A stretch of 40,347 nt of DNA, from positions 1 through 40,347 of IMG/VR virus record IMGVR_UViG_3300036390_000010; one strand, written 5' to 3'. Origin of the DNA: a virus. Below the pieces are notes generated by a model, which was not told where the DNA came from, made no database searches, and saw only the letters and a program-made list of their open reading frames with translations. Positions 6,926 to 37,869 of this stretch are shown piece after piece; position 1 is the stretch's first letter; every line of letters begins with the position of its first letter. The position numbers and the translations under genes were made by a program.

Positions 6926-8182
6926 TTAGGCCGTGACGCGGATGTTCGAGAGGCCGAGCTGCGAGAGTGCAGCGGCGATCGCGGCGTTCAGCACGTCGAA
7001 GGCTTCCGGCATGGGTTCGTCGTAGAGCTGGAGGTCGACCAGATCCGGCGTCTCGGCCCAGCGCATCTTGACGCGCAGGCCACCGGCTTCGAGCAGCGAG
7101 GCCGGGTTGAGCGACTTCGACCAGATCAGCTCGTAATCGATGATGGCGCCGAGCGTCTTCAGGTCAGACAGGAACTGGTCGGCAGCCCGATAGATTAGCG
7201 AGACGACGTGCGGCGTGATGTCCTCGGACACATACTGGCGCATGGGTCGCAGCATCGCCTTCTCGATCGCGCGGCGCGTCCGGATCTTCTTGATCGAGCG
7301 CCAACTGTTGACGGTCGGGTCGGTCGCGGTCGTGAACGGCGCCCAGAGCAGATTGCCCTCAATGATGGAGCCGACACCCGCCTGGGCGAGCTGGTTGGCC
7401 TCGGAGCTGATGTCCCCATCGGTATAGCCGACCGGCACGGAAGGTCCGAGAACGCCCTGAAGGGCGCGGTTCCAGAAGGCCTTGTAAGGGCCTCCGGTTT
7501 CCTTGTCCCGGCGTACCATGGCGGCTGCGACATTCGCCGACAGAGGCCGCGTGACATTGCCGGCGCCGAGGTTGACCACGCCGCCCGGATACATACCGAT
7601 GACGTTGAGCGCCGTCGCGAAGTCCTCCGCCCACTCGATTGCGTCCTCGATCGAGGTAGAAGGCGTGTCGGCGATGACCATGCAGTCGATGATGCGGTCG
7701 GAGACAGTCCGAGCGGCCGCGACAACGGGATTGGCAGCATCGCCCAGGCGGTGCGCCATGTAACCCGGCGCAATGATGCAGCCCGGCTCGATCTTGATGT
7801 GGCTCTTTGCATCGAGAAGCGCCCAGACGCCGGTTTTGGCACCTGCGCTGCCGACGATGCCGTTGATCTCAGCTTCGAGCTTGGCCTGCGGGTCTGTGAG
7901 TGTCGAATGTGGGGTGCGGACAAAGGCGAGATCAGTGACGATCCCCTCCGACAGGATCTGGTTGACCGTGTCACGAGCGACGCCTTCTCCCAGGAGTTCG
8001 ATCTGCTCACTGTTGTCGAGCGACAGCGTCACAGGCTCGTCGAGGGGAAAAGCCGTGTTGTCGGCAAGCGGCGCCGGCAGAGGGACGCCGATCGCGGTCG
8101 AGTCACGCGTGTCGATCTTGGCGACGGTGCTGCGAAGGTTGGAAAACTGGCGTACGCCGACGAAATCCGTGGTGCCTGACAT
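6926..8182 (-). CDS. FI: Contractile tail sheath protein, P2 gpFI-like
   Basis: A 418-residue sheath protein. Recognisable features are an N-terminal extended arm, PGYMAHRLGDA near the middle, and the C-terminal conserved sheath domain with WRSIKKIRTRRAIEKAML, which mediates sheath contacts and contraction. Length is close to P2 FI. AGGGA lies 6 bases before the ATG. It is the first gene after the dyad/terminator at 8235-8268, hence first gene of the second tail operon. Confidence 0.94.
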   Translation of the reverse strand: MSGTTDFVGVRQFSNLRSTVAKIDTRDSTAIGVPLPAPLADNTAFPLDEPVTLSLDNSEQIELLGEGVARDTVNQILSEGIVTDLAFVRTPHSTLTDPQAKLEAEINGIVGSAGAKTGVWALLDAKSHIKIEPGCIIAPGYMAHRLGDAANPVVAAARTVSDRIIDCMVIADTPSTSIEDAIEWAEDFATALNVIGMYPGGVVNLGAGNVTRPLSANVAAAMVRRDKETGGPYKAFWNRALQGVLGPSVPVGYTDGDISSEANQLAQAGVGSIIEGNLLWAPFTTATDPTVNSWRSIKKIRTRRAIEKAMLRPMRQYVSEDITPHVVSLIYRAADQFLSDLKTLGAIIDYELIWSKSLNPASLLEAGGLRVKMRWAETPDLVDLQLYDEPMPEAFDVLNAAIAAALSQLGLSNIRVTA

Positions 8183-8234
8183 CGGTCATCCCTGCCATTG
8201 GATTGGAAGCTGGGACGAGGTTAACGCGGGCATG

Positions 8235-8268
8235 AAAAAGGCCGGGCTGACAGCTGTCAGCCCGGCCT
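8235..8268 (-). terminator. Long dyad: intrinsic terminator plus copy 3 of the late-operon dyad
   Basis: Positions 8239-8268 form a perfect 30-bp palindrome whose centre is the 18-mer GGCTGACAGCTGTCAGCC. On the minus strand it is followed directly by five T (8239-8235), the form of a Rho-independent terminator for the V-W-J-I-fibre operon. The same 18-bp core occurs before two other late operons, where there is no T run, so it probably also serves as the operator for the sheath operon starting at 8182. A recognisable -10 is weak (TAACCT, about 31 bases past the centre). Confidence 0.8.
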
Positions 8269-9783: not shown

Positions 9784-12700
9784 TCAGAAGACGGCCGCGC
9801 TGAAGTCACCAATCAGCAGCCGCGAAGCTGGCCCACCGGTGCCCGTGATCTTCAGCCGGCAAGTCGTCGCCGTCTGGTTTGTGAGTTCGTGCTTGCGCTC
9901 GACCCAGAGTGGGAAAGCCAGAGCCTCGGTTTCGTCGAGCGGCAGCAGTGTCCAAGCGCCACCGTCCTTGGAGATGTGCATGGTGGCCGACGAACCACCC
10001 GGCAAATAAGCCTTGTAGTAGCTCGCGATGCGGACCAGCTCACCCAGATCGAAGGCGCGGGTCACATAGGTCAGCTCCTCGTGGATCTTGCCCGCGACCA
10101 GCTGCACCGGCGCATAGAGGATCGGCGACAGCTTCGACGTGCCCTTGAGGACGGCTCGAAGCTCGATCGTCTCGGTCAGGAACTCGTTGAACTGCAGCAC
10201 CTGTCCTTCGGCCAGCCGGTAGATCGTGCCGTTGGTGCGCTCAACCTCGAACTCGACCGAGCAGCCATTCGACGGCAGCTCGATTTCGGCTCGCACCTGA
10301 AGATCCGAGCAGTCGACCAGGTCGAAGCTGCCGAGCGGGACCGTCTTGGTGGTCACCGGATACGTCCACGCAACGACGCGGAAGGCCAAAGCCTCGTCCT
10401 GGTGAGCCGTCCAGGTCTCGGCATTGACCGAGGAGCAGCGAGGCGCGACCACATAAGGGTGACGCGAGATCTTCTGCTGCAGCTCGGCATCGAAACCGCC
10501 GAGCTTGGCAACCGAAACGGCGTGCAGATTGTCGTCGGTCTTGATGACATGCCCGTGCAGGCTCTGCGGTCCAGTCGTCACCGGCAGCATGAAGCGCGCC
10601 GACTTCCAGCCCACCGCAGCGCCGGCCATTGAGACGAACGCTTCAGCTTGGATATCGGCGGTCGGATAGCCGTTGGCGGTCGTGACCTGGTTGACGACGA
10701 TATCCTTCGTGGTGTCGCCAATCCCGCAGAGGTGGAAGTCGAGCCCGATGATCTGCCGAAGCTCCGGGACTGCAAAAAGCTGAGCCTGCGGGTCAGAGCC
10801 TCGGTCACCGTTCTCCCGCCGCTCGATCTGCAGCCGGGTCCACCGGTTGATGGTCGTGACCCGTCGCATGATTTGGGTTTCGATCGTTCCCTGACCGGCA
10901 AAGAGCGCCGTCGCCTCGGAGCCGCCCTGGCCCTTGGCTTCTACCGTCTTGGTGCCGGCCGTGACATTCTCGGGGATCACGAAGGTATCGGAGATCTCAC
11001 CCTCGGCATCCGCCGTCACGACGCCGGCCGGCTTCACATCGACGCCGTCGAAGGTCAGCTCGTCGAGGATCTCGCCCGGCGCGAAGCCCTCGATCGAGAA
11101 CGTCACCGTGATCTGGCGGAGGAACTCGATCAACTCGCTGCGGGTGTCGATGAGCTGGGTCGTCGTGCTGGTGGTCGTAAGCGGCCCGCCATTGGTCTGG
11201 ACGCCGCGATTGAACTCGCGGGTCTGGGCAGAGAGCCACTGGTTACGGCTCACCGTCCAGAAGTCGACCGGCGGCTGAAGCGCCATCGACGCCGGCAGGA
11301 AGTTGAAGTTGGCATAAGGATTGATCAGCTCGCACTGGCTCTTCAGCTCCTGGGAGATGATCACTTCCTCGACACCGTCGAGCGTGACCGGCGCCGTCAG
11401 CGTGGTCTCGTAAAAGGTAGGGTCGATCGCGAGCTGCAGGATGCCATCGACGATGGCACCCGTCTGGACCACGCCCTCGTCGCGATAGCTGTCATCCTGG
11501 AAGGGATCAACAAAGATACCCTTCTTGGCAACCGGCTCGCGGGCGTCGGTCGCGTTCTTCAGCCGTTCGAGGCCGAGCAGGCGCAGCGTGTCGAAGTGAC
11601 TGTAGTAGAGCTTTGCAATCTCTGACGCCGGCAGGAAGCGGACACCGTCATTGACGCCGTCGACGATGATCTGCGGCGCCGACATCCAGTCATTGCGGAT
11701 CTGGCAGAGCTTCAGAGCATCGCTGGGGGCGCCTGGCGGACGCGGATTGGACCGGGCGGAGATGCCTTTGATGTAGAGCGGCGAACCGTCCTCGCTCAGG
11801 CAAAGGCGATCGATACGCGGCAGTTTGCTGGTGTAGGTCACGAGGATATCACCGCCGGCAGCGCCACCGGAAACGGTGATCTCGGTATCGTTGAAGGCAT
11901 CGGCGACCACGGTGGCGCGATACCGATAGGTGACGGTGTAAGTTGAACCGGCCGCTGGCTCAGCGCCGACCAGCCCCCAATCCACGGCATTGGCCACACG
12001 GCTGTAATCAGTGCCCTGAATATAGGTCGTGCCGCCCTGGACGACAGAGACGATCTCGGTCACGCTGGTATCCGGCAGACCATCGGCGCCGTTGGCGATG
12101 GCCCCGCGTGTGACGGCCACAGACTTCTGCTTGGTCAGCAGGATCGTGTTGATGGTGCCGATCGGCGCGACATCGACGCTGAAGGTATGCGAGGCGCCGC
12201 CCGGATAGGTGTGGGTTTCCCCGTTGATCAGCAGCTCGTCCCAATCCTCGATCTCTTCGTGGCGAAGGGCGGCAAGGCGGGTCCGCTTGTAGCCGTTGAT
12301 ATTGGCCTCGCCTTCCGAGATCGAGAAGATCTGCTTGCCAGCGTCGGTACCGAGCCAGGTCACGCGGCAACCGCTGACGATATAGTTTCCGTTCGGGCGG
12401 TCGTACTCGATGATCGACTGCAGCGCCGGCGCCAGAATGTTCGGACCGGTCTGATCGAGGATGACGCCGTCCTGAAGGGTGTAGACGGAGAAGAACAGGC
12501 CGTCCTCATCGGCGTCCTGATGCGACCAGGTCGCGCTCCTGATCTCGCGCGATGCACCTTCCTCGCCCTCGCCGTCGGAGCCAGGCACAAGGCCGAGCAA
12601 AGTCGGATCGTCTTCGGAGGTGACCCAATCGGTCACGAGACGGATGCCGACTTCGGTGCGGCCGGTCATGGGAACGTCAGCCAAAACGCGAGCCGGCACG

Positions 12701-19933: not shown

Positions 19934-20392
19934 TCAGGCGGCAGCCGTCAGGCCATTGGCCTTGCGGTATTCTTCTTCGGAGATGCCGAGCATCTTGATG
20001 ACCTCGCGGTCCTCGGCCGACAGCGTCGAGAGCTTGTCGCCGGGCTGCTTGTCATCGAGGCCGGAGGCGCTGAGCGTTGCGGTCATGGTGCCGAGCAGCG
20101 CTGTCACCTGGGCAAGGCCCTCGGTCGTGGCGCAGAGCGCGGCATACTGGTCGCGCTGCGCCGGCACGATCTTCTTTTCCTTCAGCGCGCCGTCGAGCAG
20201 CGTATCGACCTTGGCCTGATGGTCGGCCTTGTTGCGGGCTTCCAGATCGGCGGACAGGGTCTTGACCTGGTCGAGAGCCGCCTGGTGGACCTGAGGGTCG
20301 ATGCGGGCTTTCAGGTTGGTGACGGCGGAAAGGCACGAGGCCTCGGACGCGTCCTCGGAAAGACCGAGGGCGGCGGCAATGGCTTTCAGCAT
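19934..20392 (-). CDS. Head scaffold protein from internal in-frame start (Mu Z-like)
   Basis: An internal ATG at 20392 (residue 183 of the protease) is preceded by GAGGA with a 7-base spacing and would give 152 residues covering just the helical scaffold part (MLKAIAAALGLSEDASE onward). Mu makes scaffold protein Z the same way, from an internal start in I. The layout and the ribosome-binding site are visible; production of the short form is inferred. Confidence 0.72.
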   Translation of the reverse strand: MLKAIAAALGLSEDASEASCLSAVTNLKARIDPQVHQAALDQVKTLSADLEARNKADHQAKVDTLLDGALKEKKIVPAQRDQYAALCATTEGLAQVTALLGTMTATLSASGLDDKQPGDKLSTLSAEDREVIKMLGISEEEYRKANGLTAAA

Positions 20393-20938
20393 TTTGGGTT
20401 CCTCAGAGGTTGAAAGGTCAGCCGATGCGACGGCCGCCATCGAAGCAGCCGGCGCAGCAACGAGCGCGGCCGAATGCAGCCAGAAGGCCTTGCCGTTCTC
20501 GTCGTGTTTCAAGGTGGGAGAAATGTAGCGGTGGGTGCGGGCAGCGAGGACCGCGAGGCCTTCGGCCAGCCACTCGACTTTGCCATAGAGGCCATCGGCG
20601 CGGGCTTCGAGCTTCGAGATCCAGCCGACGGCCGGAGCCGCCTCGCCGAACATGGCCTTCTTCACCGTCGCATGGTCGATATCGACAGGGAGATCGACGC
20701 CGTCCTGGACGAAGCGCGCGGCGAGCAGCTCGGGATCCACATCGAAGACGCGACCGTCGCGGGCGGTGAACTTGCCGCGCGGCGTAACCTTGATCCATTC
20801 CGGGCCGGCCTGCTTGGCGGCAGCGGTCGGATCGGCAAGGTAAGCGTCGAGGACGGTCAGACCGGTCATCGCCTCGGCAATGCCGGGGACAGCAGGAGAG
20901 AGCGTCGATAAGGTGAGTGTCGGCGAGTTCTTGAGCAT
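19934..20938 (-). CDS. Prohead protease with C-terminal scaffold, Mu protein I-like
   Basis: A 334-residue prohead protease. The first 180 residues carry the protein I domain (WIKVTPRGKFTARDG, VDLPVDIDHAT, VGWISKLEARADG, YISPTLKHDENG) and the rest is a helical, charged scaffold segment. The ATG at 20938 is the start that fits the intergenic dyad upstream; a longer in-frame start would pass through the dyad. The protease matures the prohead by cutting scaffold and itself. A second product probably begins at 20392. Confidence 0.9.
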   Translation of the reverse strand: MLKNSPTLTLSTLSPAVPGIAEAMTGLTVLDAYLADPTAAAKQAGPEWIKVTPRGKFTARDGRVFDVDPELLAARFVQDGVDLPVDIDHATVKKAMFGEAAPAVGWISKLEARADGLYGKVEWLAEGLAVLAARTHRYISPTLKHDENGKAFWLHSAALVAAPAASMAAVASADLSTSEEPKMLKAIAAALGLSEDASEASCLSAVTNLKARIDPQVHQAALDQVKTLSADLEARNKADHQAKVDTLLDGALKEKKIVPAQRDQYAALCATTEGLAQVTALLGTMTATLSASGLDDKQPGDKLSTLSAEDREVIKMLGISEEEYRKANGLTAAA

Positions 20939-20971
20939 GGCGGCAAATTGCCACCGTTCTCTGCTGCCTTG

Positions 20972-20991
20972 AGGCTGACATCTGTCAGCCT
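20972..20991 (-). promoter_or_regulatory. Copy 2 of the late-operon dyad, upstream of the protease/head operon
   Basis: AGGCTGACATCTGTCAGCCT on the plus strand is identical to the other two copies except for one base at the centre. It lies in the 232-base gap between the MuF-like gene and the protease gene. The centre is about 43 bases from the protease ATG, so a start point at the usual activator spacing would give a very short or absent leader. No good -10 is visible. The rest of the gap holds only a short CCCCG/CGGGG hairpin (21043-21054). Confidence 0.65.
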
Positions 20992-21170: not shown

Positions 21171-22361
21171 CTATTCAGCGCCCTGTTCGAGCCGTTCGAT
21201 GCGCATCATGCCACCCTGGGCGAGCCGAAGGAAGCTTCGCCAAATCACCGATCCCAGGCGAGCAATGATCTCGATCTCCGGACGCTCGTCTGTCGGGTAG
21301 CTTTTCACCGCTGTCGAGGACAGGACATCGGGTAGAACCGAGAGATCGTCGATGTCGAGCCCGGCGCCGAGCAGCGTCCCGATCGCCTCACCCGTGATCG
21401 AGATGACAGGCGATGAGGCTCTAAGCTCCGCCGCGATGCCGACATTGTGCCCGGCCGGGAGAGCGAAGGCCTGGGGAAGTCGCGGCGCGATCCTCAGGTA
21501 AGGGTCTGACCAGAGATCTCGAAGCACCCGGTTTGCGTCCTCAGGCGCGGCAGCGGCAAGCTTTGTGTCGAGGTTCTGCACGAGCGTTGAGGCCCGCGCC
21601 AGGCCGGGATTGGTCTGCCAGCCGGGATCGATGCCAGGAGGCACGATCGAGATCTCACCAGTCCGCCGGTTGCGGTACTGGATATCAGGCCCGAGGTCAG
21701 GTGCCTGGTCGGTGTAGCGGATCTTGATATCGTTGCCGTCGAGATCCTGACCAATGACACGCTCGGTCCCCAGCAACCGGTCACGCTCGCGCGCCGAGAT
21801 CATCCGCACCTGGCATTTGCACTGCCAGCCATTCGGCGGCCAGTGCGTTCGCCAGAAGGGATCGTCGATCGGCAGAATGAGACCAACCCACTGCAGATGC
21901 TCGACGCGGGGGTCGCTTGATGTGGTCCGGACGTAGAGCACATAGGGCAGCACCCGCTTAGAGCGCTGCGCCCGCTCCCATTGGCCGGCAGCCCGCGCCG
22001 AATTCAAGTTCGCCCAGAACGTCGTCTTCAGCCGCCGATCGCTGGCGAAGTTCACCATGCGGTCGGGTTGGGCACCGGTCGGGTCCGAGACCATGCGCGG
22101 TCCCCACCAGCCGAGCTTCGTCAGCTCCTTCTCGATCTGAGGCTTCCAGCTCTCGAAGCCTTGGCCCTCCGCGATAGCGGTCGAGATCGTCGATCGGAAC
22201 GCGTTGAGCACGTCGAGCTCGACGGCCTTCGCGACCGTGAACTTGTAGGCATGCTCCTCCGCCCAGACATCTGCCCAGGAGAAGGCCGGCGTGGACGTCT
22301 TGCCGTCGAAGTAGCTGGTGACCTCGGCCGGGACCGCGAAGGCTGGATTGCGCTCTGCCAT
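21171..22361 (-). CDS. Minor head protein, Mu gpF / gp30-like (MuF)
   Basis: A 396-residue MuF-family protein packaged in the head near the portal. The family signature HWPPNGWQCKCQVR is at residues 173-186, after the conserved helical domain with FWANLNSARAAGQWER. The last 130 residues are an extension beyond the core MuF domain. MuF proteins in other phages often carry nuclease or toxin-like tails, but no known motif is evident here. It lies directly after the portal gene. Confidence 0.9.
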   Translation of the reverse strand: MAERNPAFAVPAEVTSYFDGKTSTPAFSWADVWAEEHAYKFTVAKAVELDVLNAFRSTISTAIAEGQGFESWKPQIEKELTKLGWWGPRMVSDPTGAQPDRMVNFASDRRLKTTFWANLNSARAAGQWERAQRSKRVLPYVLYVRTTSSDPRVEHLQWVGLILPIDDPFWRTHWPPNGWQCKCQVRMISARERDRLLGTERVIGQDLDGNDIKIRYTDQAPDLGPDIQYRNRRTGEISIVPPGIDPGWQTNPGLARASTLVQNLDTKLAAAAPEDANRVLRDLWSDPYLRIAPRLPQAFALPAGHNVGIAAELRASSPVISITGEAIGTLLGAGLDIDDLSVLPDVLSSTAVKSYPTDERPEIEIIARLGSVIWRSFLRLAQGGMMRIERLEQGAE

Positions 22362-27835: not shown

Positions 27836-28092
27836 GACCCACCCTCCGGACTGGAGGGCTGCGGCGCGATCGACGCGGCCGTCTTCATGTCGACGGACCC
27901 GAAGCCCCGGTGAATGCCGAGGATGGCGGCAATCAGCATCACCATGGAGGGCACGGCCGTGGCCCCGAAAGAAACTGCCTGCTCGGATCCACGGATGGCG
28001 CCGATCGCGAGCACCAGGATGACGACCCATGCGAGCGCAAACGAGATCCAGAGATAGAGCCGGGAAGTCGAATAGGACGGCTTAACCAGCAT
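27832..28092 (-). CDS. Holin-like small membrane protein
   Basis: An 86-residue protein with two hydrophobic segments (about residues 12-33 and 44-58, the latter within TAVPSMVMLIAAILGIHRGFG) and a polar C-terminus. GGAGG lies five bases before ATG. Located between endolysin and spanins, so a holin is the best guess; there is no family match that I can name. Confidence 0.75.
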   Translation of the reverse strand: MLVKPSYSTSRLYLWISFALAWVVILVLAIGAIRGSEQAVSFGATAVPSMVMLIAAILGIHRGFGSVDMKTAASIAPQPSSPEGGS

Positions 28093-28264
28093 GGCAGCCT
28101 CCATCGGCGAGCAGCGCCATTGACGCACCGCAGCTCAAGCCGGCAACACCTTGCGCATAGAAGAGCAGCTCTGGCGCCGATGGCTTAAACGCCTCCGCCA
28201 GAAGGAAGGCGAGCGTGGCAAAGCCGGAAATGATGAGAAGGCAGATGATCGAGAAACGGAGCAT
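28082..28264 (-). CDS. Small two-segment membrane protein, second holin candidate
   Basis: A 60-residue protein with a strongly hydrophobic N-terminus (LRFSIICLLIISGFATLAFLL) and a weaker second segment near residues 36-53. The ATG overlaps the endolysin stop (TGATG). It may be the holin, or an antiholin or pinholin partner of the next gene. Confidence 0.7.
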   Translation of the reverse strand: MLRFSIICLLIISGFATLAFLLAEAFKPSAPELLFYAQGVAGLSCGASMALLADGGCHAG

Positions 28265-28962
28265 CAAGCGACCGCCTTGAACGGAGGCCGGCCAGCGAGC
28301 GCCAGCTCCATCTCCATCATGGTCTGCGGGCCGACCTTGCCATCGACGACGATGCCACGCGAGCGCTGGAAGGCGAGTGTTTCCATCTCGACCGCATGGT
28401 CAAATAGCGTGCCGCTCTGGAGCGCGCCGCGACCCCCAGAGATGGCGCGCCAGGTCATCAGCTTTTCGCGCCAGGCGACCACGTCTGAGCCTTCGTCGCC
28501 GCGCTTCAAAACCTTGTCGATGATCGGCTTGAAGCCCTTCGATCGGCCTTCGAAGAGATAGTCGTACTCTTTCGAAGCATCGAAGCTCGGGCAGGCCTTG
28601 GCCGCATATTCATTGTGGCCGGAAAGCTTCTTGATGTTGAAGCGGTCGCGGAGTTCCGTCAGCTCGACCAGGAGCGCGCTGCGCTGGACTGCATTGCGGG
28701 TGTCTTTCGGCGTGCGGCCATCCTTTGCGACACCGCCACCGTAGACGACACCGAGCGTCCCGCTGTTGTGTCCTTCGCAGTGAGCGCCAATCGCCTCGAT
28801 CGGCCGACCCGCCCAGCGCTCGCCATTCAGGCCAATGACGCGATGATAGCCGATGCCCGACCAGCCGCGCGCGCGGTGCCAGGCGTCGATCTCGGCGACG
28901 GTGACCGGGCGCCCTTCGGGCGTGGCGGTGCAATGCAGAATGATTTCGGTGATGGGACGCAT
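28264..28962 (-). CDS. Endolysin: N-acetylmuramoyl-L-alanine amidase with peptidoglycan-binding domain
   Basis: A 232-residue amidase_2/PGRP enzyme. Zinc ligands by alignment to T7 lysozyme are H10, H116 and C124, with Y39 and K122 in the matching active-site places (T7: H17, H122, C130). The C-terminal 80 residues form a peptidoglycan-binding domain ending FQRSRGIVVDGKVGPQTMM. There is no signal peptide, so release needs a holin. GGAG lies six bases before the ATG. First gene of the late region, 75 bases after a late-operon dyad. Confidence 0.92.
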   Translation of the reverse strand: MRPITEIILHCTATPEGRPVTVAEIDAWHRARGWSGIGYHRVIGLNGERWAGRPIEAIGAHCEGHNSGTLGVVYGGGVAKDGRTPKDTRNAVQRSALLVELTELRDRFNIKKLSGHNEYAAKACPSFDASKEYDYLFEGRSKGFKPIIDKVLKRGDEGSDVVAWREKLMTWRAISGGRGALQSGTLFDHAVEMETLAFQRSRGIVVDGKVGPQTMMEMELALAGRPPFKAVA

Positions 28963-29001
28963 GAGTGGCTCCAAGGACGCGGCTTCGAACCGGTTGGAGC
29001 G

Positions 29002-29046
29002 ACTATGCAATCAGTGGGGGATTTGAGGGGCTGACAGCTGTCAGCC
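29002..29046 (-). promoter_or_regulatory. Copy 1 of the late-operon dyad with candidate -10 (lysis promoter)
   Basis: The perfect 18-bp palindrome GGCTGACAGCTGTCAGCC spans 29029-29046. On the minus strand, TG-C-ATAGT follows, with a -10-like CATAGT (29007-29002) about 31 bases past the palindrome centre. That would put the centre near -43 from the start site, where Mor- and C-type activators bind in Mu. No -35 is visible, as expected of an activated promoter. There is no T run, so this copy is not a terminator. Confidence 0.68.
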
Positions 29047-29049
29047 GGA

Positions 29050-29445
29050 TCAGAAGAGACTGCCCTGACCGTCGTCTTCTTTAGCTTTCATGCGCCAAAT
29101 CGTGCGCTCATGCAAGCCTGCGATACGAGCCGCCTCGCGGGCACTCTTGCCCTCGTCGAGTGCTTCCTGGGCGCGTCGGCGGGCAGCGGTCAGGATCGCG
29201 GCCGGCCCGCGCGGAATGATCTCATTCTGCACGCCGCGCAGCTTTCCGTCTGGATCAAGTGTCGCCAAGCCCTGGCAGATCTTGTCGGCAGTCTCGAAAC
29301 CGAGCAGCTCCGTCAGCCAGTGGCCTTGGACTGCCCGAGGCGGGATGGAAACGCGCGTGCCGCCGTGGCTTCGTGCCACTTCATAGGCAGCATCGATCCC
29401 GGCGATATCGGCGATGTCCGCGAGGATGCCCGGAAGAGTGCTCAT
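29050..29445 (-). CDS. Mor/C-family late or middle transcription activator
   Basis: A 131-residue protein. Residues 28-37 (GGTRVSIPPR) correspond to the conserved GGG-x-VYIPRG segment of Mu Mor, and residues 98-122 form the C-terminal helix-turn-helix (SAREAARIAGLHERTIWRM). Length agrees with Mor (129). Such proteins bind as dimers to a dyad just upstream of -35 and recruit RNA polymerase. It is the last gene before the lysis module and the dyad at 29029-29046 begins at its stop codon, so it is the best candidate activator of all three dyad-marked operons. Confidence 0.82.
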   Translation of the reverse strand: MSTLPGILADIADIAGIDAAYEVARSHGGTRVSIPPRAVQGHWLTELLGFETADKICQGLATLDPDGKLRGVQNEIIPRGPAAILTAARRRAQEALDEGKSAREAARIAGLHERTIWRMKAKEDDGQGSLF

Positions 29446-29636
29446 CTCTTCCCCACAATCCCGAGCCGAACCTCGATCTCGATCTGACGGGCGGTGAGCG
29501 CACGCAGCTGCTCTTCCCGGTGAATGCGGGTGCGAACATCCACACCGCCGCGTGCCAGCTTGCGCTGCAGCTCAAGGCGCTCCCGCCGGATCTTGTCCAG
29601 CTCCATTGCGTCGAAGAGCGGCAGCGCTTGTGCCAT
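29442..29636 (-). CDS. Small helical protein of unknown function
   Basis: A 64-residue Arg/Leu-rich protein, almost fully helical with heptad repeats (LDKIRRERLELQRKLARGG). TGATG overlap with the ASCH-like gene and ATGA overlap with the activator gene place it in one translational unit with both. No family recognised. Confidence 0.72.
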   Translation of the reverse strand: MAQALPLFDAMELDKIRRERLELQRKLARGGVDVRTRIHREEQLRALTARQIEIEVRLGIVGKR

Positions 29637-30073
29637 CAGGGCCGAGCCTCCCAGCGGATGATGACGCCCTGGAAGAGCGAGCCGGGGTTTTCGGCTGCCC
29701 AGAAGCGGCCCATGGTTTCGCGGGCCGACGCGCCAATCAGCTTAGCCGGCGCAATCCCCTGAAGCCGAGCAGGGTCGAAACCGTCGGATACCGCAAAGGC
29801 CTCGATGTCGTCCCGATGCAGCGGCGTACCGTCAACCTCGATATAGGCGATGCCGGCCTCGATCAGATCCGAGGACATGATAACGATCGGCAGGACGGCA
29901 ATACAGATCGGGTCCGGGATGATCTTTCGGCAATGGCAGGTGCGCATCCCCGTGAAGAGCTGCACCGGCTCGCCGACATGGGCATGGCGACGGCGGTGCC
30001 CCCGGATGGTGTGGCCTTTGCTGCCGTCCTCGATCTGAGGTGCGAAGTACTTTTTGAAGCCGTAGGCGACCAT
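29636..30073 (-). CDS. ASCH/PUA-like domain protein
   Basis: A 145-residue protein. The N-terminal YGFKKYFAPQIEDGSKGHTIR followed by HVGEPVQLFTGMRT resembles ASCH domains, which have a conserved I-x2-G-x-K-x-x-TIR pattern and bind RNA or modified nucleosides. ATG at 30073 is chosen because GGTGGAG lies 8 bases upstream; a longer TTG start at 30118 has none. Related small proteins are frequent in early regions of phages of alphaproteobacteria. Function unknown. Confidence 0.75.
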   Translation of the reverse strand: MVAYGFKKYFAPQIEDGSKGHTIRGHRRRHAHVGEPVQLFTGMRTCHCRKIIPDPICIAVLPIVIMSSDLIEAGIAYIEVDGTPLHRDDIEAFAVSDGFDPARLQGIAPAKLIGASARETMGRFWAAENPGSLFQGVIIRWEARP

Positions 30074-30432
30074 CAGATCAACTCCACCGGCTGTGACATC
30101 AGGCACGCGAAAATACAAGTTGCCGTCAAATCGATTGAGAGTAGCGTTCCCGAAGAAACAGCTGGAGAGACTGAATGGAACACGTTGTTGAACATCCCAT
30201 CGACCTGACGTTCGAGGAACTTCTCGAAGCGGCGATGGATCGCCTGGATCCAGACAGTGATGCGTTCGGCATAGCCCGAATGGTACTTGCAGATCCTGAT
30301 CAGCTCGACACGCTTACTCCAAATCGGCGCTATCACTGGGATGCATTTGTTAATCCCGCGATCGAGCGCGTCATTGAGGCAAGGAATGTGCTCTGGAGAC
30401 AGCATCTTTGGGATCGCGCAGGTTAACTTCAT
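30073..30432 (-). CDS. Alternative minus-strand frame opposite the plus-strand moron
   Basis: A 119-codon open frame that joins its neighbours perfectly: ATGA overlap with the methyltransferase stop and TGATG overlap with the ASCH-like start. Against it, the product is unusually Cys- and Ile-rich and its first codon positions are poor in G+C, which is atypical. It runs in exact codon register with the plus-strand gene at 30175-30426, so one of the two is probably a mirror artefact. I rate it less likely than the plus frame. Confidence 0.35.
   Translation of the reverse strand: MKLTCAIPKMLSPEHIPCLNDALDRGINKCIPVIAPIWSKRVELIRICKYHSGYAERITVWIQAIHRRFEKFLERQVDGMFNNVFHSVSPAVSSGTLLSIDLTATCIFACLMSQPVELI
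30175..30426 (+). CDS. Small acidic protein on the opposite strand (possible moron)
   Basis: An 83-residue protein, acidic and helical (FEELLEAAMDRLDPDSD, LDTLTPNRRYHWDAFVNPA), with a natural amino-acid balance. GGAGA lies 7 bases before ATG. By rough count about half of third codon positions are G/C, well below neighbouring genes, suggesting foreign origin. It converges on the methyltransferase (stops 2 bases apart) and diverges from the ASCH-like gene, so it would interrupt the early operon. The opposing frame at 30073-30432 is the alternative. Function unknown. Confidence 0.55.
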   Translation: MEHVVEHPIDLTFEELLEAAMDRLDPDSDAFGIARMVLADPDQLDTLTPNRRYHWDAFVNPAIERVIEARNVLWRQHLWDRAG

Positions 30433-31151
30433 CTCTGCACCTCCTCTGCCGCTATGCGAGCGGCGTCTTCCTTGCGCTTGGCCAGCCGGCGCTTCGCCTC
30501 ACCGGGCGTCGCGAGCACCATGTCGGACAGCTTGGTGTAGGTTTTCTCCATGCCCGGCCGGAGCCAGATCGGCGGCTGCGGCGGCACGCCGTCCACCCAG
30601 GCCAGCCAGACATAGTCCGTGGCGCTGGAAAGCTCGGGATCCCAGACGCCTTCCATCAACGACACGCGCTCGGCGAAGTAGCCGACATAGGACGGAGGCG
30701 TGTCGCGGTAGACCAGGTGGTAACGCTCCTGGCCGGAGAGCCAGGAGGCGCGAACGAAGAAGGCAACGCCCTTTCGAGCGATCTTCAAAGCCGTGTCGAA
30801 GAAGCTTTGAGCGATATTGAAAGGCGGGTTGACGAAGAGCCAGTCGGGCACGATCCGGCCATCGGCTTCCAGGCTCGCCCGGCTTTCGAAGGTAAAATCG
30901 CGGATGGGCGGGTTGAAGCCCCAATCATGGACGTCGGAATACTCGACCTCGCGAAACACCTCCCGCAACGGCACGACCATATGACCACCACCGCAGCAAG
31001 GATCGAGCGCGGTCATGTCGCTCAATGAACCTCCAGGCAGCCTGCTTAGGACCTCCCAGATAAAGGCGCGCGTCGCCCAGGGCGGCGTCGGAAAATAGTC
31101 CAGGCTGTCAGCCGCCTGATGGCGTTGGTTCATGACGTGGACGGAGGTCAT
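30429..31151 (-). CDS. Putative DNA (adenine) methyltransferase with NPPF motif
   Basis: A 240-residue SAM-dependent methyltransferase. ALDPCCGGGHM (residues 48-58) is the SAM-binding motif I and VNPPF (107-111) the catalytic motif IV of N6-adenine or N4-cytosine enzymes. DYFPTPPWATRAF (18-30) precedes them, as in phage methyltransferases of this type. The C-terminus is charged and helical. The start is fixed by the ATGA overlap with the Cys-rich gene. In the early block it would modify phage DNA before replication; target unknown. Confidence 0.85.
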   Translation of the reverse strand: MTSVHVMNQRHQAADSLDYFPTPPWATRAFIWEVLSRLPGGSLSDMTALDPCCGGGHMVVPLREVFREVEYSDVHDWGFNPPIRDFTFESRASLEADGRIVPDWLFVNPPFNIAQSFFDTALKIARKGVAFFVRASWLSGQERYHLVYRDTPPSYVGYFAERVSLMEGVWDPELSSATDYVWLAWVDGVPPQPPIWLRPGMEKTYTKLSDMVLATPGEAKRRLAKRKEDAARIAAEEVQR

Positions 31152-31390
31152 GATGCCACCGCCCTTCCGTCCTGACGGCGCTGAGCCTCGCGCTCCCGCT
31201 TGGCAGGTAAATACAGCTCCCGCCATGCGATTGAATTCTGCTGCCTGACCTTGTCCGAGATCGGCAGGCCCTTCCGCCGGCAGTTATCGTATCGGTTGAT
31301 CGCCATGCGGAGAGCGCAGGATTTCGACTTTTCATCGCACTCCGGGAGTCCGCATTCAAAACAGGGATGTTGCGCCTTGCTGGTCATCAC
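31148..31390 (-). CDS. Small Cys-rich protein
   Basis: An 80-residue protein with HPCFECGLPECDEKSKSCALR near the start: C-x2-C, then C and C, likely a zinc knuckle, followed by a basic tail. It starts with GTG at 31390 overlapping the upstream stop (GTGA), or ATG at 31387. Likely a nucleic-acid-binding early protein; not recognised. Confidence 0.75.
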   Translation of the reverse strand: MMTSKAQHPCFECGLPECDEKSKSCALRMAINRYDNCRRKGLPISDKVRQQNSIAWRELYLPAKREREAQRRQDGRAVAS

Positions 31391-31707
31391 GCCGCCGCCT
31401 TTCCCGAGTCGAGGCGCTCCAGGCGGTAGCCGTGGCCCTTCTGAGCGCGGATCGTCCAGCCCGCCTTTTCAAGCTTCTTGCGGGCGGTGCAGATATGCCC
31501 GCGGATGGCGATAGGTGCGCTCAGAGGCCCGCCATCCGGGCAGTCGCCCCATACCTTCTCGATGAGAACCCCGATCGAGGTCAGGCGGTGGTTCGCCTGA
31601 ACCAGCGCCTCGACGATCAGCATCTCGTTGCGTGTCAATTTGGCCACGTCGATTCCGGAGAAGTCGCCCATAGGCTGTCCGCAGTGAGAGCAAAGAAGGC
31701 GAGCCAT
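31387..31707 (-). CDS. PhoB/OmpR-type winged-helix regulator without receiver domain
   Basis: A 106-residue protein. N-terminal CSHCGQPM suggests a zinc knuckle. Residues 23-98 match the Trans_Reg_C fold: LTRNEMLIVEALVQA, then LIEKVWGDCP, then AIRGHICTARKKLEKAG (recognition helix region) and GHGYRL, as in response regulators such as PhoB. No receiver domain is present. It overlaps the GemA stop (TAATG), the place where Mu carries mor, so it is likely a second phage transcription regulator. Confidence 0.82.
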   Translation of the reverse strand: MARLLCSHCGQPMGDFSGIDVAKLTRNEMLIVEALVQANHRLTSIGVLIEKVWGDCPDGGPLSAPIAIRGHICTARKKLEKAGWTIRAQKGHGYRLERLDSGKAAA

Positions 31708-32354
31708 TACGCACCGCCTTTCGCTGCACGAACGCGCTCGCCGAGAGCGTTCATCACCCGCTGCCAGTCGCTGTCCACGAGGTGGCTCAGCACCTGGGCA
31801 TCCGCCCGGCCGGAGAGCCGGATCGCTTCTTGGTCGAAGCCTTGGCGGGTGATGAGGCCTGCGCCTGGATGAATGATGCGCCACTGCGCCCAGGCGATCT
31901 TTGCACCGTCGCGCTGCAGCCACTCGTATCCATTGGTGTTGCCGAAGCCGACGCCTGCCTCACGCTTCAGCCAGCCCTTAAGCGCCTCGATCGCGGCCCG
32001 ACCGTCGTCGGCATAGTGCAGGAATCGAGTGTGATCGAGACCGGTCTGACGCTTGACGAAGGCCAGCAAAGCCGCATCCCGGCGATCCTTCACGACGCCG
32101 AGATTGTAGCCGGCGATCCAGAGGGCCTGCAGCTTCTTGGCATACTTGCCCGTCAGCCCCTTCACCTTCTCTTTGCCCTCGGCCGGCGTGAAGCCGTCGT
32201 TCCGCAAGACGGTCAGGACGCGCTGGCGCTCCTGCTCGGTCATGTCCTTCACCGACGACTTGCCGGTGATGTTGGTGAGCTTAGCCCGGTAGGTGTCTTC
32301 GTCCAGGCCGAGCTGCTTCTTGGCAACGTGGATGGCGGCGATGGAGGAGGTCAT
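31707..32354 (-). CDS. gemA: GemA-like regulatory protein (Mu gp16, DUF1018)
   Basis: A 215-residue protein. The first 140 residues match GemA/DUF1018: AIHVAKKQLGLDEDTYRAKL at the start, then WIAGYNLGVVKDRRDAALLAFVKRQTGLDHTRFL. In Mu GemA affects host gene expression and DNA supercoiling or gyrase-related functions. Overlaps neighbours by 4 bases at its start and 3 at its end. Confidence 0.9.
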   Translation of the reverse strand: MTSSIAAIHVAKKQLGLDEDTYRAKLTNITGKSSVKDMTEQERQRVLTVLRNDGFTPAEGKEKVKGLTGKYAKKLQALWIAGYNLGVVKDRRDAALLAFVKRQTGLDHTRFLHYADDGRAAIEALKGWLKREAGVGFGNTNGYEWLQRDGAKIAWAQWRIIHPGAGLITRQGFDQEAIRLSGRADAQVLSHLVDSDWQRVMNALGERVRAAKGGA

Positions 32355-33865: not shown

Positions 33866-34159
33866 TCAGGACACCTTGTTCTTGAGGTAGGACGAGCGCA
33901 GCCGCAGGAGTGCTTCATGCAGGCGCTGGCGGGCTTCCTTCTCGCCAGCGGTACCGCTGGCGAGCTGTTGATGATCAAAGGCGGCGACGACCTGTTCGAC
34001 GCGCTGCATGACGAAGAAGGTGCGGCTCTTCTTGGTGCCGCTCTTCGGGTTGGTGCTGGCCCCGACCAGAGTGCTGGAGACGCCGGCCCCGACCTGATCG
34101 ACGATGCGATCAAGCGGGATGCGGATCTCGGCGAGTACGAGGATGTGATCGTCGGTCAT
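33866..34159 (-). CDS. Early protein of unknown function
   Basis: A 97-residue protein with a beta-like N-terminus (HILVLAEIRIPLDRIVDQVGAG) and a basic helical C-terminus. It begins at an ATGA overlap. Codon use agrees with neighbours. No family recognised. Confidence 0.72.
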   Translation of the reverse strand: MTDDHILVLAEIRIPLDRIVDQVGAGVSSTLVGASTNPKSGTKKSRTFFVMQRVEQVVAAFDHQQLASGTAGEKEARQRLHEALLRLRSSYLKNKVS

Positions 34160-34479: not shown

Positions 34480-34763
34480 GAGCGGCCTCCCTTCCCGAAA
34501 TCTGGACGGATGATCTTGCCCTTGGCATCGGCGATCATGTCTTCGAGCTGCTCAGTAGCAGCCAGCTCCATGCTCCGACGTGCCTGCCCACCGGCTTCCA
34601 TGTCGCGGAAGATCGAAAGCTCCAGCTCGATACGCTGTGCCAATGAGCTGAGGGCGCTGATAAACACCCCCGTCTCGATGATCTCCGCGACCGGCACGTC
34701 GGCGCTGCGACCTTTGAAGTCGGATGCGATGGCATCCAGTTCCATAGCGAGACTGATCGTCAT
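34476..34763 (-). CDS. Early protein directly after transposase B
   Basis: A 95-residue acidic helical protein (AEIIETGVFISALSSLAQRIELEL). Its first half resembles the length and style of the next gene product. It overlaps the transposase B stop by 4 bases, so it is translated with it. Function unknown. Confidence 0.72.
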   Translation of the reverse strand: MTISLAMELDAIASDFKGRSADVPVAEIIETGVFISALSSLAQRIELELSIFRDMEAGGQARRSMELAATEQLEDMIADAKGKIIRPDFGKGGRS

Positions 34764-35785
34764 GCGATGTCTCCCAGGTCACGGTTCTTCCACGCATCGC
34801 GCAGCAAGGGCAGCGTGAGATCTTCGCCACCGGAGAGGCCAGAAATCAGCGCGGCCTTGATGGTGCGGTCGATGTTACGCAAGGCCCCCGGCTTTTGAGC
34901 GATGACCTTCAGGAACTTCACGCAATCGTCGTCTTCGACGCCCCAGGCAGAGATCAGCATCTCGGCGCCGAGCTGCGGGTTGTTTTCCCGCTTCAGGCGA
35001 CGGTCAAAGCGGGTCGCGACCTGAGCCCGGCTCATCACTGACTTGCTGCGATCGTTGAAGAAGGAGGTCCCGGTGTCCTCATTGCCCAGGAGCGCCAGCC
35101 CGCAATTGTTGATGTCGACGAAATGGCGCAGCTGGTTGATCGCGTCCGGGACAAGGTTCTGGGCTTCGTCCACAATGAGGAGCGAGCCTTCGCCGATCCG
35201 CTGCAGCTTGCGACCGATGGTGCGCACCAGTCGGGTCGGATTGTGCTCAGTCACCTGCAGTTCCTCGGCGATATCGACGAGGATCCCGTGGATTGTCTTC
35301 GTGTGCGGGCTGGCCGTCACCATGAAGACATGCGGACGATAGTCACGGAAGTGCTTGGCCGCTGTCGTCTTGCCGGAGCCTGAAGGCAGGGTCACCATGA
35401 CCATGCCTGCACTGATCTGGGCAAAGAGGAGGGTCTTGATCACGTCCTCGCCGGTCGGCGTCTTCAGGTAGCGCGGCGAGACCGGCAGCGTTGCCGCGAT
35501 CCGCGAGCTTTCTTCCAGGTTGTCCAGCCAGGTGCTGATCTGGTCATTGAGGTTGGACAAGACGCCGGCATAGTTGCCATTCGTCCATTGACTGAAGGTC
35601 GCTTCCGCCATTCCCGTGCGGCGGCGCACCTCGGCCTTTGACCAGCCATTGAGCTTCGAAAGCTCAATGACTGCGCCGAGCAGCTTGCGCCAGCGATCGA
35701 CCTCCGCCGGTTGGTGCTTGACCGTAAACTCGGTGCTGGGCTGCGGAATGATCCATGCGCCGGTTGTGTTGATCGGATTTTTCAT
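34760..35785 (-). CDS. B: Transposition protein B, AAA+ ATPase (MuB-like)
   Basis: A 341-residue MuB homologue. Residues 47-75 form an N-terminal helix-turn-helix (GWSKAEVRRRTGMAEATFSQW); Walker A is PSGSGKTT (134-141) and Walker B SLLIVDEAQN (201-210, D206 E207). LGNEDT is the sensor 1 region. MuB polymerises on target DNA with ATP, selects target sites and activates transposase A. The start has AGGA about 10 bases upstream. Separated from A by 122 bases holding two stem-loops. Confidence 0.94.
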   Translation of the reverse strand: MKNPINTTGAWIIPQPSTEFTVKHQPAEVDRWRKLLGAVIELSKLNGWSKAEVRRRTGMAEATFSQWTNGNYAGVLSNLNDQISTWLDNLEESSRIAATLPVSPRYLKTPTGEDVIKTLLFAQISAGMVMVTLPSGSGKTTAAKHFRDYRPHVFMVTASPHTKTIHGILVDIAEELQVTEHNPTRLVRTIGRKLQRIGEGSLLIVDEAQNLVPDAINQLRHFVDINNCGLALLGNEDTGTSFFNDRSKSVMSRAQVATRFDRRLKRENNPQLGAEMLISAWGVEDDDCVKFLKVIAQKPGALRNIDRTIKAALISGLSGGEDLTLPLLRDAWKNRDLGDIA

Positions 35786-35883: not shown

Positions 35884-35909
35884 AGCCCGAACGCAGCACT
35901 CTTCGGGCT
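35884..35909 (-). other. Stem-loop at the end of transposase A
   Basis: AGCCCGAA (35884-35891) pairs with TTCGGGCT (35902-35909) across a 10-base loop. It begins at the transposase A stop codon (35910-35908). There is no T run after it; it may stabilise the A message or affect A-to-B coupling. Confidence 0.5.
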
Positions 35910-37869
35910 ATTCCCGGTTGGGGAATAGGATGATGTCGGCGTCGCCAAGTATGCGATCCATGCCGGCATTGAACTTGTCGTCGAAGCTCTCGACCTCCTC
36001 CGACACCGCAGGCTCCAACTTCGTCAGCACCGCTGATCGGGTCACAAGTCGAGTGACCGTCGGAGCCTTTGGCGTCTTTGTCTGGGGCTTCATCTTGTCG
36101 GCTTTGGCATTCAGTTCCTTGAGGTCTAGATCGGTCAGGCGGCGAGCTGCCGTCTTCTGGGCCTTCAGGGAGCGCATGTGATCGCTCTCGGCGCGCGCCC
36201 GCTCACGAGCTGCCGCCTGGCAATCGAAGCCAACCTTGGCGACGCAATCCGCTTCGCCGAGGAACCGTCCTTCAGGATCGTAGACCTTGATTGCCCCGTG
36301 CAGATCGGCCGGGTCGAAGCGAACCGTGACCTTGCGACCGATCCACTGAGTGAGGAACTGTTGATGGTACCGGTTGCCGAACAGGTGGATGGCACCATCC
36401 GGTTTGCGGGCTGTGACCTGCTCTGCGGCAAGCATCCAGAGGGAACGCTGAGCCGGGCTGGCAAACCGAACGAACTGGCCGTGCGTCTCCATGCTGGCTT
36501 CGAACACCTGGTCGAAACTTCTGCCTTTGGCCGTCTCGGTCTTTCGATCCGGGCGGGCGTTGTGCTCGGCCACCTGGCGCGCCACGTGCGCTTCCAGTTC
36601 AGCGACGGGAATTGCACGCTGGCCGTAGTTTTCTGGCTTGTGTTGCGTGCTTCTGCCAGTATAGGCGCCCGCCATATCGGGATGCTTGGAGATGTTCTCG
36701 GCAAGATCGCCCCACGCACGCTCGACGGGCTTTGACTGGCCACGGCGGGGCTTAACGAAGCGACCGTCGATGCCCAGCGTCTGCAGAAGCCCGGCAACTT
36801 CATCTTCCGTGATCTTGAAACGATGGCGGGACTTTGCACCGCCGGAGATCTTCTTGCTGGCAAAGGCCTTGCCGTTGTCCATGTAGAGACGTTCCGGGAT
36901 GCCGTGCTGCTCGACCATATTACCGATGACGGTCCGGACGGCCTCCCAGGTCTCAGCCTCGGTCAGCACCCATGACAGGATCTTGCGCGAGTAAAGGCAC
37001 TGTGTGCCGACCAGATAAAGGCGACCCTGGCGGCCGTCTTCGAACTGGACATGCAGGTCGAGCTTGTGACCGTCGGTGTTCACATACTGCATGGCATGCA
37101 GGTGCGAGACGCTACGCTGCTGGGCCGGAATAAGCTTCCGAGCCTCTTCCTTGCCTTTGCGCGAGAGGATCTGCACCGCCTTCGGGATCTTCAGATCCAT
37201 GTGCCGGCGCAGGGTCCGCTCGTGAGGGATCGGTGCCCAGCCATGCGCCTCGGCCACCGCTTTCATCCGCCGATAGCAGGCAGAGAATGCCGATCCTTCG
37301 GGACGCAAATAGTCCGAGACCAGAACGTCCCAGGCCATGGGGTGTACCTCGGCGGTCTCGGTCACCACGCCCAGCGCCTTTTTCGAAGTCGACGGGGCCA
37401 GTGCAGCTTCCCAGTCCTGTCGCGCGTGGCCTTCGGTGAGGGCTCTCCACTCGTGATAGGTGGATCGAGAAACTCCATAGCGTTGCTTGATCGCGGCCAT
37501 GGCCTGAGCAGAGGTCGCGCCGTCCCGGATCATCGTCTCGACGGCGAGGAGAACCTTGAGGCGGCGCTCGCACTGTGCCTTCTGAACGGTCGTCAGCCGC
37601 TCATAGATCGCCCAAGCCGTCTTCGAACGGTCAGTTTTCGGGGCTTGAGCCTCCATCATGAAGGCGAGCTTCTGTCGCGCGGCGTCGGGCAGAGAGGACA
37701 GGTGATACTCATAGTAGACGCCACCATTCGGTGCTGTCTGGCGCCTGAAGTACCGAAGGTCGGAGCGCAGACCCTCGCGGGCAACGAACCGGTCGAAGTG
37801 CTTCGTATCAACCGGGACACCCGGAAGTTTTGCCTCGACGAGTTCCTTGACGGAGAACCACTCTTTCAC
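35908..37869 (-). CDS. A: DDE transposase A (MuA-like)
   Basis: A 653-residue MuA homologue. Residues 1-75 form the winged-helix domain that binds the internal enhancer (WFSVKELVEAKLPGVPV). Residues 90-240 hold the end-binding helix-turn-helix domains. The RNase-H-like catalytic core has D266 (VNTDGHK), D331 (YMDNGKAF) and E383 (KPVERAWG), spaced as in MuA (D269, D336, E392). The basic C-terminal part contains the region that contacts B. It catalyses strand cleavage and transfer for integration and replicative transposition. ATGA overlap with the upstream gene. Confidence 0.96.
   Translation of the reverse strand: MKEWFSVKELVEAKLPGVPVDTKHFDRFVAREGLRSDLRYFRRQTAPNGGVYYEYHLSSLPDAARQKLAFMMEAQAPKTDRSKTAWAIYERLTTVQKAQCERRLKVLLAVETMIRDGATSAQAMAAIKQRYGVSRSTYHEWRALTEGHARQDWEAALAPSTSKKALGVVTETAEVHPMAWDVLVSDYLRPEGSAFSACYRRMKAVAEAHGWAPIPHERTLRRHMDLKIPKAVQILSRKGKEEARKLIPAQQRSVSHLHAMQYVNTDGHKLDLHVQFEDGRQGRLYLVGTQCLYSRKILSWVLTEAETWEAVRTVIGNMVEQHGIPERLYMDNGKAFASKKISGGAKSRHRFKITEDEVAGLLQTLGIDGRFVKPRRGQSKPVERAWGDLAENISKHPDMAGAYTGRSTQHKPENYGQRAIPVAELEAHVARQVAEHNARPDRKTETAKGRSFDQVFEASMETHGQFVRFASPAQRSLWMLAAEQVTARKPDGAIHLFGNRYHQQFLTQWIGRKVTVRFDPADLHGAIKVYDPEGRFLGEADCVAKVGFDCQAAARERARAESDHMRSLKAQKTAARRLTDLDLKELNAKADKMKPQTKTPKAPTVTRLVTRSAVLTKLEPAVSEEVESFDDKFNAGMDRILGDADIILFPNRE

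Follow-up and report, generated by a model that had tools for sequence, protein, structure and literature searches.

In phage Mu two activators, Mor (at the promoter Pm) and C (at Plys, PI, PP and Pmom), match the same profile family, phrog_836 (E=1e-10 and 2e-11, respectively). C serves the lysis, head-protease and tail operons, with an operator before the lysis genes and another before the protease gene. The Mor site consists of two 5-bp repeats 6 apart, and a GC-rich inverted repeat, AATAACCGGCATCCTGCCGGTTATTT, is present between C and lys (locus L192, about 10380-10485). The C-site pattern TTAT-N6-ATAA had no exact match in the Mu stretch that was read. The binding centre of Mor at Pm is given as -43.5, where the activator stands in place of a -35 element (PMC4390567).

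Ochrobactrum phage POA1180 (Abaiavirus), which has been cultured, encodes a protein annotated as 'late transcriptional activator' that is 43% identical to the activator described below. The terms 'promoter', 'palindrom' and 'transcriptional activator' do not occur in the available main text of the POA1180 paper. Phage T4 provides two further points of comparison. Longer early RNAs mask the lysozyme start of T4 gene e, and the late promoters lie within the upstream arm (PMC3014915). In T4 late transcription, gp33 and gp55 bind their clamp (gp45) via C-terminal peptides (PMC9690074).

The window analysed here (the whole stretch of DNA, 40,347 nucleotides; IMG/VR virus record IMGVR_UViG_3300036390_000010, positions 1 to 40,347) very probably carries a regulon like that of Plys/PI/PP in Mu, with a single Mor/C protein. 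This core of one Mor/C-type activator and three operators resembles that of Mu, is of a known kind and is well supported. Added to it are an operator series that covaries with the activator, a predicted leaderless head mRNA, masking arms embedded in the promoters, and a possible clamp tether.

Gene content and the activator

The window has a Mu-like gene set, all on the minus strand. It comprises a MuA-type transposase (35908-37869), MuB (34760-35785), GemA (31707-32354), an endolysin with Amidase_2 and peptidoglycan-binding domains (28264-28962, ATG start at 28962), a Mu-F-like protein (21171-22361), a Mu-I-like head protease (19934-20938; Mu-like_Pro, E=1.7e-50) and a tail sheath gene (6926-8182; Phage_sheath_1C, E=7e-5; Phage_sheath_1, E=3e-4). 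A D12-class adenine-specific DNA methyltransferase is encoded near the record end (908-1714), and the early region contains a 24-bp perfect palindrome, CTCGCCAGCGGTACCGCTGGCGAG, at 33941-33964.

The Mor/C-type activator gene (29050-29445, minus strand, 131 aa) is the sole full-length copy in the record. Its product matches phrog_836 ('late transcriptional activator') with E=9e-21. The activator profile matches Mu C with E=1.3e-4 (probability 53) and the PDB structure of Mor (1rr7) with E=0.055, and the Pfam Mor model gives E=0.097 on the window activator, under its cut-off. By similarity to Mu Mor and C, the protein appears to be a member of the Mor/C family. Its AlphaFold2 model has a pLDDT of 85.5. 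The structural matches listed for this model span the HTH half only (Z up to 6.0), and Mor is not among the matches listed by the Foldseek and VIA structure searches. Because the gene shares 4 nt with its upstream neighbour (29442-29636), it looks like a member of the early operon.

An earlier reading of the window from its sequence alone (hereafter the sequence-only reading) had seen no second Mor/C protein. This holds more widely: one full-length phrog_836 protein was found in each of the 20 records searched, with two weak partial matches extra in G001. A second Mor/C protein with a middle promoter, as in the three-phase programme of Mu, was not found in the 20 records; Mu has two activators, whereas here there is one. 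Directly after GemA, in the slot that Mor holds in Mu, the window encodes a DNA-binding winged-helix protein of the Trans_reg_C (OmpR/PhoB) type that has no receiver domain (31387-31707) and is unrelated to the activator.

Three putative operators in the window

An 18-bp perfect palindrome, GGCTGACAGCTGTCAGCC, is located at 29029-29046 (centre 29037.5), three bases past the activator stop. The sequence-only reading had described the stop at 29050 as adjoining a dyad, and its coordinates were right. It had also noted a -10-like CATAGT about 31 bases past the centre; this hexamer runs from 29007 to 29002 on the minus strand, and its first base is the 31st past 29037.5. The start of the lysis promoter is predicted near 28995, which puts the dyad centre near -42.5. 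As had been claimed, there is no -35: its place is occupied by the dyad end, which is not TTGACA-like, and a promoter scan of 28000-31000 found no sigma-70-type promoter pair.

When the 18-mer was searched with up to 3 mismatches, the window yielded 3 matches against 0.01 expected, a number reached in 0 of 100 shuffles; the recurrence is more than chance. The head (protease) copy (20973-20990, one mismatch) stands before the Mu-I-like protease gene. It is followed by a -10-like CAATTT (20945-20950, minus strand), and the predicted start is the A of the protease ATG, 20938. The sheath copy (8245-8262) lies within a 30-bp perfect palindrome (8239-8268) before the tail-sheath gene, with a -10-like TAACCT at 8218-8223 (minus strand) and a start predicted near 8211. 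Endolysin, protease and sheath, the genes that the three copies face, each stand first in an operon.

No operator was found before the activator gene or any other early gene. The proposal of the sequence-only reading that one activator may serve both middle and late roles was not borne out in its first half: the three sites serve operons that are late by gene content, early genes carry no site, and the activator gene itself looks like part of the early operon. A programme in which the middle stage has been dropped is the simpler reading.

Two further repeats were observed in these regions. An inverted repeat TGGCA-N-TGCC (20938-20953), just before the protease ATG, overlaps the predicted -10 and is kept in most close relatives with variable spacing. 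A sigma-54-like reading of it was rejected, as the spacing count disagrees with the consensus. A weak second dyad, GGATGACCGATGTCAGGC (3 mismatches), covers the sheath start codon at 8174-8191 and is also found in G001 (47396-47413); coding constraint alone may account for it.

Distribution of the sites in relatives

A protein search returned 6 viral loci and an exact palindrome search returned 25 DNA stretches. The close set contained 21 records: the window, POA1180 and the 19 behind those loci. The activator protein is encoded in 16 of them, and in all 15 of these other than POA1180 a dyad directly follows the activator gene (with two mismatches in G010). The remaining 5 records lack the protein. 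All are contigs of 6 to 15 kb that carry a single dyad, which faces a sheath gene in L054, L058 and L063 and is not placeable in L057 and L062. A search with the alignment yielded 62 viral loci and 17 genome loci, and 20 more distant records were added as stretches (the ends of records above 40 kb left out) and scanned for repeated dyads.

In the resulting 36 records (15 close, POA1180 and 20 more distant) all three sites are present in 21 and two in 11, several of the latter being fragments. One exact site occurs in 3 records and none in 1. Near-matches to the operator were detected in G028, G037 and G039: G039 lacks an exact operator but has one at 1 mismatch, and in G037 two sites appear only when 2 mismatches are allowed. 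The lysis site lies farther from the activator gene than in the window in G022, G032, G033 and G035.

In POA1180 the TGACA-N-TGTCA dyad occurs exactly three times, at the operons that bear a site in the window. The phage differs from the window in the spacer (1 instead of 2) and in the stretch between the N-terminal part of the activator and the HTH, which is shorter. Putative sites of one activator before the lysis, head-protease and tail operons are what characterizes a Mu-type late regulon. The sites themselves differ from the Mor site of Mu, being 16-18 bp dyads (TGACA, GGACA or TCCGA, with spacers of 1-2), and the third site stands here before the sheath gene.

Promoter geometry and the head mRNA

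For the geometry, 91 sites were reduced to 74 non-redundant ones, and a -10-like hexamer was scored as A at position 2 and T at position 6. The hexamer start peaks at +32 from the dyad centre in each of the three promoter classes taken separately (z 6.9, 5.0 and 6.3). Hexamers with at least 3 of 6 matches to TATAAT begin at +30 to +33 in 72% of the sites, against 0-11% for other intervals of equal width. In the window they start at +31 (lysis), +32 (protease) and +31 (sheath). With the centre at -43.5, position -12 falls at +32, so the peak agrees with Mor. The Mor-like spacing near -43 that the sequence-only reading had suggested is thus upheld, and with the predicted starts the dyad would be centred near -43 and replace the -35, as expected for the Mor/C family.

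Of the 32 protease sites, 28 have an ATG between +43 and +47, with widely differing neighbouring letters; in the window it lies 44 bases past the dyad centre. Four protease sites have no ATG near +44 (G025, G030, G033, G035). Since +1 is expected at about +44, the head mRNA should begin at its start codon and, judging from the spacing, should be leaderless.

Operator or terminator

Another explanation takes the palindromes for intrinsic terminators that close operons, and their Mor-like spacing for an accident. The sheath sites lend themselves to it. Their median dyad arm is 13, against 9 and 9.5 in the other two classes, a T run follows the stem in 8 of 25, and the window sheath site, a 30-bp palindrome followed by T5 on the minus strand, is terminator-like. 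The picture is different in the other two classes, where T runs follow none of the 34 lysis sites and 2 of the 32 protease sites; moreover, terminator stems need neither a fixed distance to a downstream -10 or ATG nor the same half-site at every site of a genome. As an account of all the sites, termination is extremely unlikely. The terminator reading was dropped for the lysis and protease sites and retained as a possible second function of many sheath sites. There the long arms and T runs suggest that sheath operator and terminator may be one element, at which the preceding late operon would stop and the activator of the following operon would bind. Where Mu has its GC-rich inverted repeat between C and lys, the window family has an operator and a masking arm (see below), without a T-run terminator.

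Operator types follow activator lineages

The sequence of the dyads changes with the activator lineage. The TGACA half-site has a spacer of 2 in the window clade and 1 in the POA1180 clade. GGACA is found with spacer 2 in G021, G026, G027 and G033 and with spacer 1 in G030, G032 and G035, and TCCGA with spacer 2 in G034; other lineages have further half-sites. In G026 and G034 all three operons carry the altered half-site. The GGACA label requires two changes on a tree of 53 proteins, and the labels cluster there (0 of 500 shuffles were as low for TGACA and for GGACA), a pattern that relatedness alone also produces.

Residues 116-117 of the activator are V-R in both GGACA lineages, and most TGACA rows have I or A followed by an aromatic residue. 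L109 has A-R with TGACA and L126 has V-S with TGACA, and these two residues are therefore not a full specificity code. Residue 117 as a lone specificity switch was ruled out, as L109 combines R117 with TGACA.

Palindromes suit many dimeric regulators, and the dyads might instead be bound by a host protein, a prophage repressor or the Trans_reg_C protein that the window encodes after GemA. The last was rejected as the binder: it is present in 1 of 20 records, the window alone. The dyad type tracks the lineage of the Mor/C-type protein, and loci L149 and L155, from two Shinella genomes, carry different activator/operator pairs, which points to a phage protein as the binder rather than a host regulator. 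Placement at -43 without a -35 is also typical of an activator. Binding by some other regulator is thus very unlikely, although a shade less so than general termination.

Predicted masking arms in the lysis and sheath promoters

The lysis and sheath promoters differ from the head promoter in their leaders. Their start codons lie farther downstream than that of the protease, usually with a Shine-Dalgarno sequence, and the stretch between -10 and +1 complements the Shine-Dalgarno region of the gene itself. For the window lysis promoter, the 5' arm (11 nt, 28994-29004, minus strand) lies between -10 and +1 and is 91% complementary to an 11-nt 3' arm (28964-28974, minus strand) that contains the lysin Shine-Dalgarno TTGGAGC. 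The sheath-leader arms, CGTCCC at 8212-8217 and GGGATG at 8187-8192 (minus strand), form a weaker pair. The 87 bases from the activator stop to the lysin ATG contain no T-run terminator, so the need for masking is plain.

Relatives differ in both arms, which makes covariation testable. The 5' arm of a phage is a better pairing partner for its own 3' arm than for the 3' arms of other phages, and the mean pairing was reached by 0 of 20,000 permutations for lysis (19 sites) and, separately, for sheath (18 sites). With a sliding 5' interval the signal falls mainly at +32 to +51 in both classes. As 10 lysis and 3 sheath sites without a clear start had dropped out of this start-codon-based run, the test was redone with a fixed 3' region and no start rule. 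It gave z=6.0 for lysis (19 of 34 sites used) and 4.6 for sheath (10 of 25 used); in the protease class, predicted to be leaderless, no z was above 1.0 (15 of 32 used). An extra, weaker covariation with the leader at +18 to +33 of the lysis class (z up to 3.9) falls outside the masking-arm model.

Alternatively, the late mRNA itself could open with a hairpin of the covarying arms, which would serve its stability or regulation, if transcription started upstream of the predicted +1. The starts are indeed predicted ones, and the 5' arms, which extend from about +34 to +48, overlap the predicted +1. However, the 5' arm starts within the -10 or immediately behind it, which leaves too little room for transcription to begin upstream of the arm, and the protease ATG at +44 independently sets +1 there. 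Such a hairpin is unlikely, if a more serious contender than the two alternatives above.

The masking reading is in line with predicted folding. The predicted mean accessibility of the Shine-Dalgarno region was 0.45 in late RNA and 0.29 in read-through RNA for lysis (late higher in 17 of 19), and 0.49 and 0.26 for sheath (17 of 18). When the arm was scrambled, accessibility was partly regained (lysis 0.36, up in only 13 of 19; sheath 0.38, 15 of 18). The upstream arm complements the Shine-Dalgarno region and, by the predicted start, would be missing from late RNA. We infer that read-through lysis and sheath RNA should be silent, as for T4 gene e, where early read-through RNA hides the lysis ribosome site and late RNA is made without the arm (PMC3014915). 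It differs from T4 in that the sheath operon is included, that a wide phage group is concerned, and that the arm is the -10 to +1 stretch; for masking here, the evidence consists of covariation and folding.

The C-terminal tail of the activator

The last five codons of the activator gene (29053-29067, minus strand) encode QGSLF, a peptide that resembles a clamp motif. The tail Q-G-x-L-F is almost invariant, with Q127, L130 and F131 in at least 90% of the 53 aligned proteins. In the model it is of low confidence (mean pLDDT 60 for residues 121-130 and 42 at residue 131; 128-131 under 50). Of 66 homologues, counting near-copies, 59 have the loose pattern Q..[LIM][FLMWY] within their last 22 residues; position 2 is mostly G rather than L. 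The pattern is missing from 7, namely L103 (cut by the contig end), L138 (a doubtful homologue) and L115, L124, L125, L131 and L153, which retain an LF- or LL-like end minus the full pattern. The background is 2.5% of shuffled tails and 2 of 43 other window proteins.

Mor of Mu ends in QPSLL, and C of Mu has QPDLF near its end. Within the last 30 residues the pattern is present in 12 of 15 Mor/C-type proteins of named phages, which include the two of Mu and 13 others hand-picked from search matches. The misses are QGKLDL (JBD25), QYSLDM (Kp4866-3) and EPDLF (MT835710), of which the JBD25 variant resembles the hexapeptide form of the clamp motif. The host DnaE served as a weak control: QSDMF was found in 3 of 8 main loci (L193, L194, L200) and no motif there in L195 and L198. 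The other three loci (L196, L197, L199) are uninformative, the longest-frame rule having taken the wrong frame.

One source puts the consensus for bacterial clamp binding at QLxLF and notes that one transposase family conserves Q1 together with a hydrophobic or aromatic residue at positions 4 and 5 (PMC4549789). Another writes it as QL(S/D)LF and allows more variability (PMC9690074). The activator tail thus has a C-terminal QLxLF-like peptide of the kind that marks sliding-clamp-binding proteins, and a clamp tether is a reasonable but unproven reading of its role. Extended to the tails of Mor/C-type late activators in general, Mu Mor and C included, the proposal is that the tail binds host DnaN and would tether late transcription to replicative transposition. 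We regard this broader proposal as tentative, with somewhat less than an even chance of being right. In the searched literature no link of Mor or C to the sliding clamp was found, and one may exist in subscription papers, which were thinly covered; nor did that literature contain a statement on whether Mu late transcription needs replication.

That the Qxx[LM]F tail of the family contacts RNA polymerase or some other partner instead of the clamp is a proposition that could equally well be true or false. Mor requires the C-terminal regions of the alpha and sigma subunits (PMC4287176). Deposited structures listed as Mor and C also exist (9l0y, 9l0x, 9vw8). On the side of the clamp are the fit of the tail to the consensus in both sources (PMC4549789, PMC9690074) and the position of the peptide in a low-confidence tail of the model. 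The likeness of QGKLDL to the hexapeptide motif counts in the same direction.

The clamp tether would resemble T4 late transcription, where late-transcription factors carry C-terminal clamp-binding peptides (PMC9690074). It differs in that the evidence here is a sequence resemblance, the clamp would be the host beta, and the DNA-binding activator comes from a different protein family.

A model of the late switch and its implications

In the proposed model, the early operon would make the only Mor/C-type activator of the phage from 29050-29445. Presumably as a dimer, it would bind 29029-29046, 20973-20990 and 8245-8262, each palindrome being centred about 43 bases upstream of a predicted start with a -10 and without a -35. 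There it would stimulate host RNA polymerase and so turn on the lysis, head and sheath operons. Translation would be secured by two locks. The head mRNA would begin at its own AUG without a leader. Read-through RNA would mask the ribosome site, and lysis and sheath RNA started at the promoters would be free of the masking arm. We consider this combination of a single activator, three dyads at -43 and two translational locks highly probable. The place and spacing of the sites and their covariation with the protein can be read from the DNA; binding and activation are deduced from them.

These results supply a late regulon, derived by computation, that extends over a wide group of Mu-like phages, many of them in Hyphomicrobiales genomes. 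The matched activator/operator series (TGACA, GGACA and TCCGA, with spacers of 1 or 2) could reveal the DNA specificity of the Mor/C family. A masking arm embedded in the promoter is a compact way of tying translation to the right start site. Through the common Qxx[LM]F tail, a coupling of Mu-type late transcription to replication by the host clamp could be tested directly. If confirmed, T4-like clamp coupling would exist in an unrelated phage group, through the host clamp. Together with the leaderless head mRNA and masking, late proteins would then come only from replicating copies and from transcripts started by the activator.
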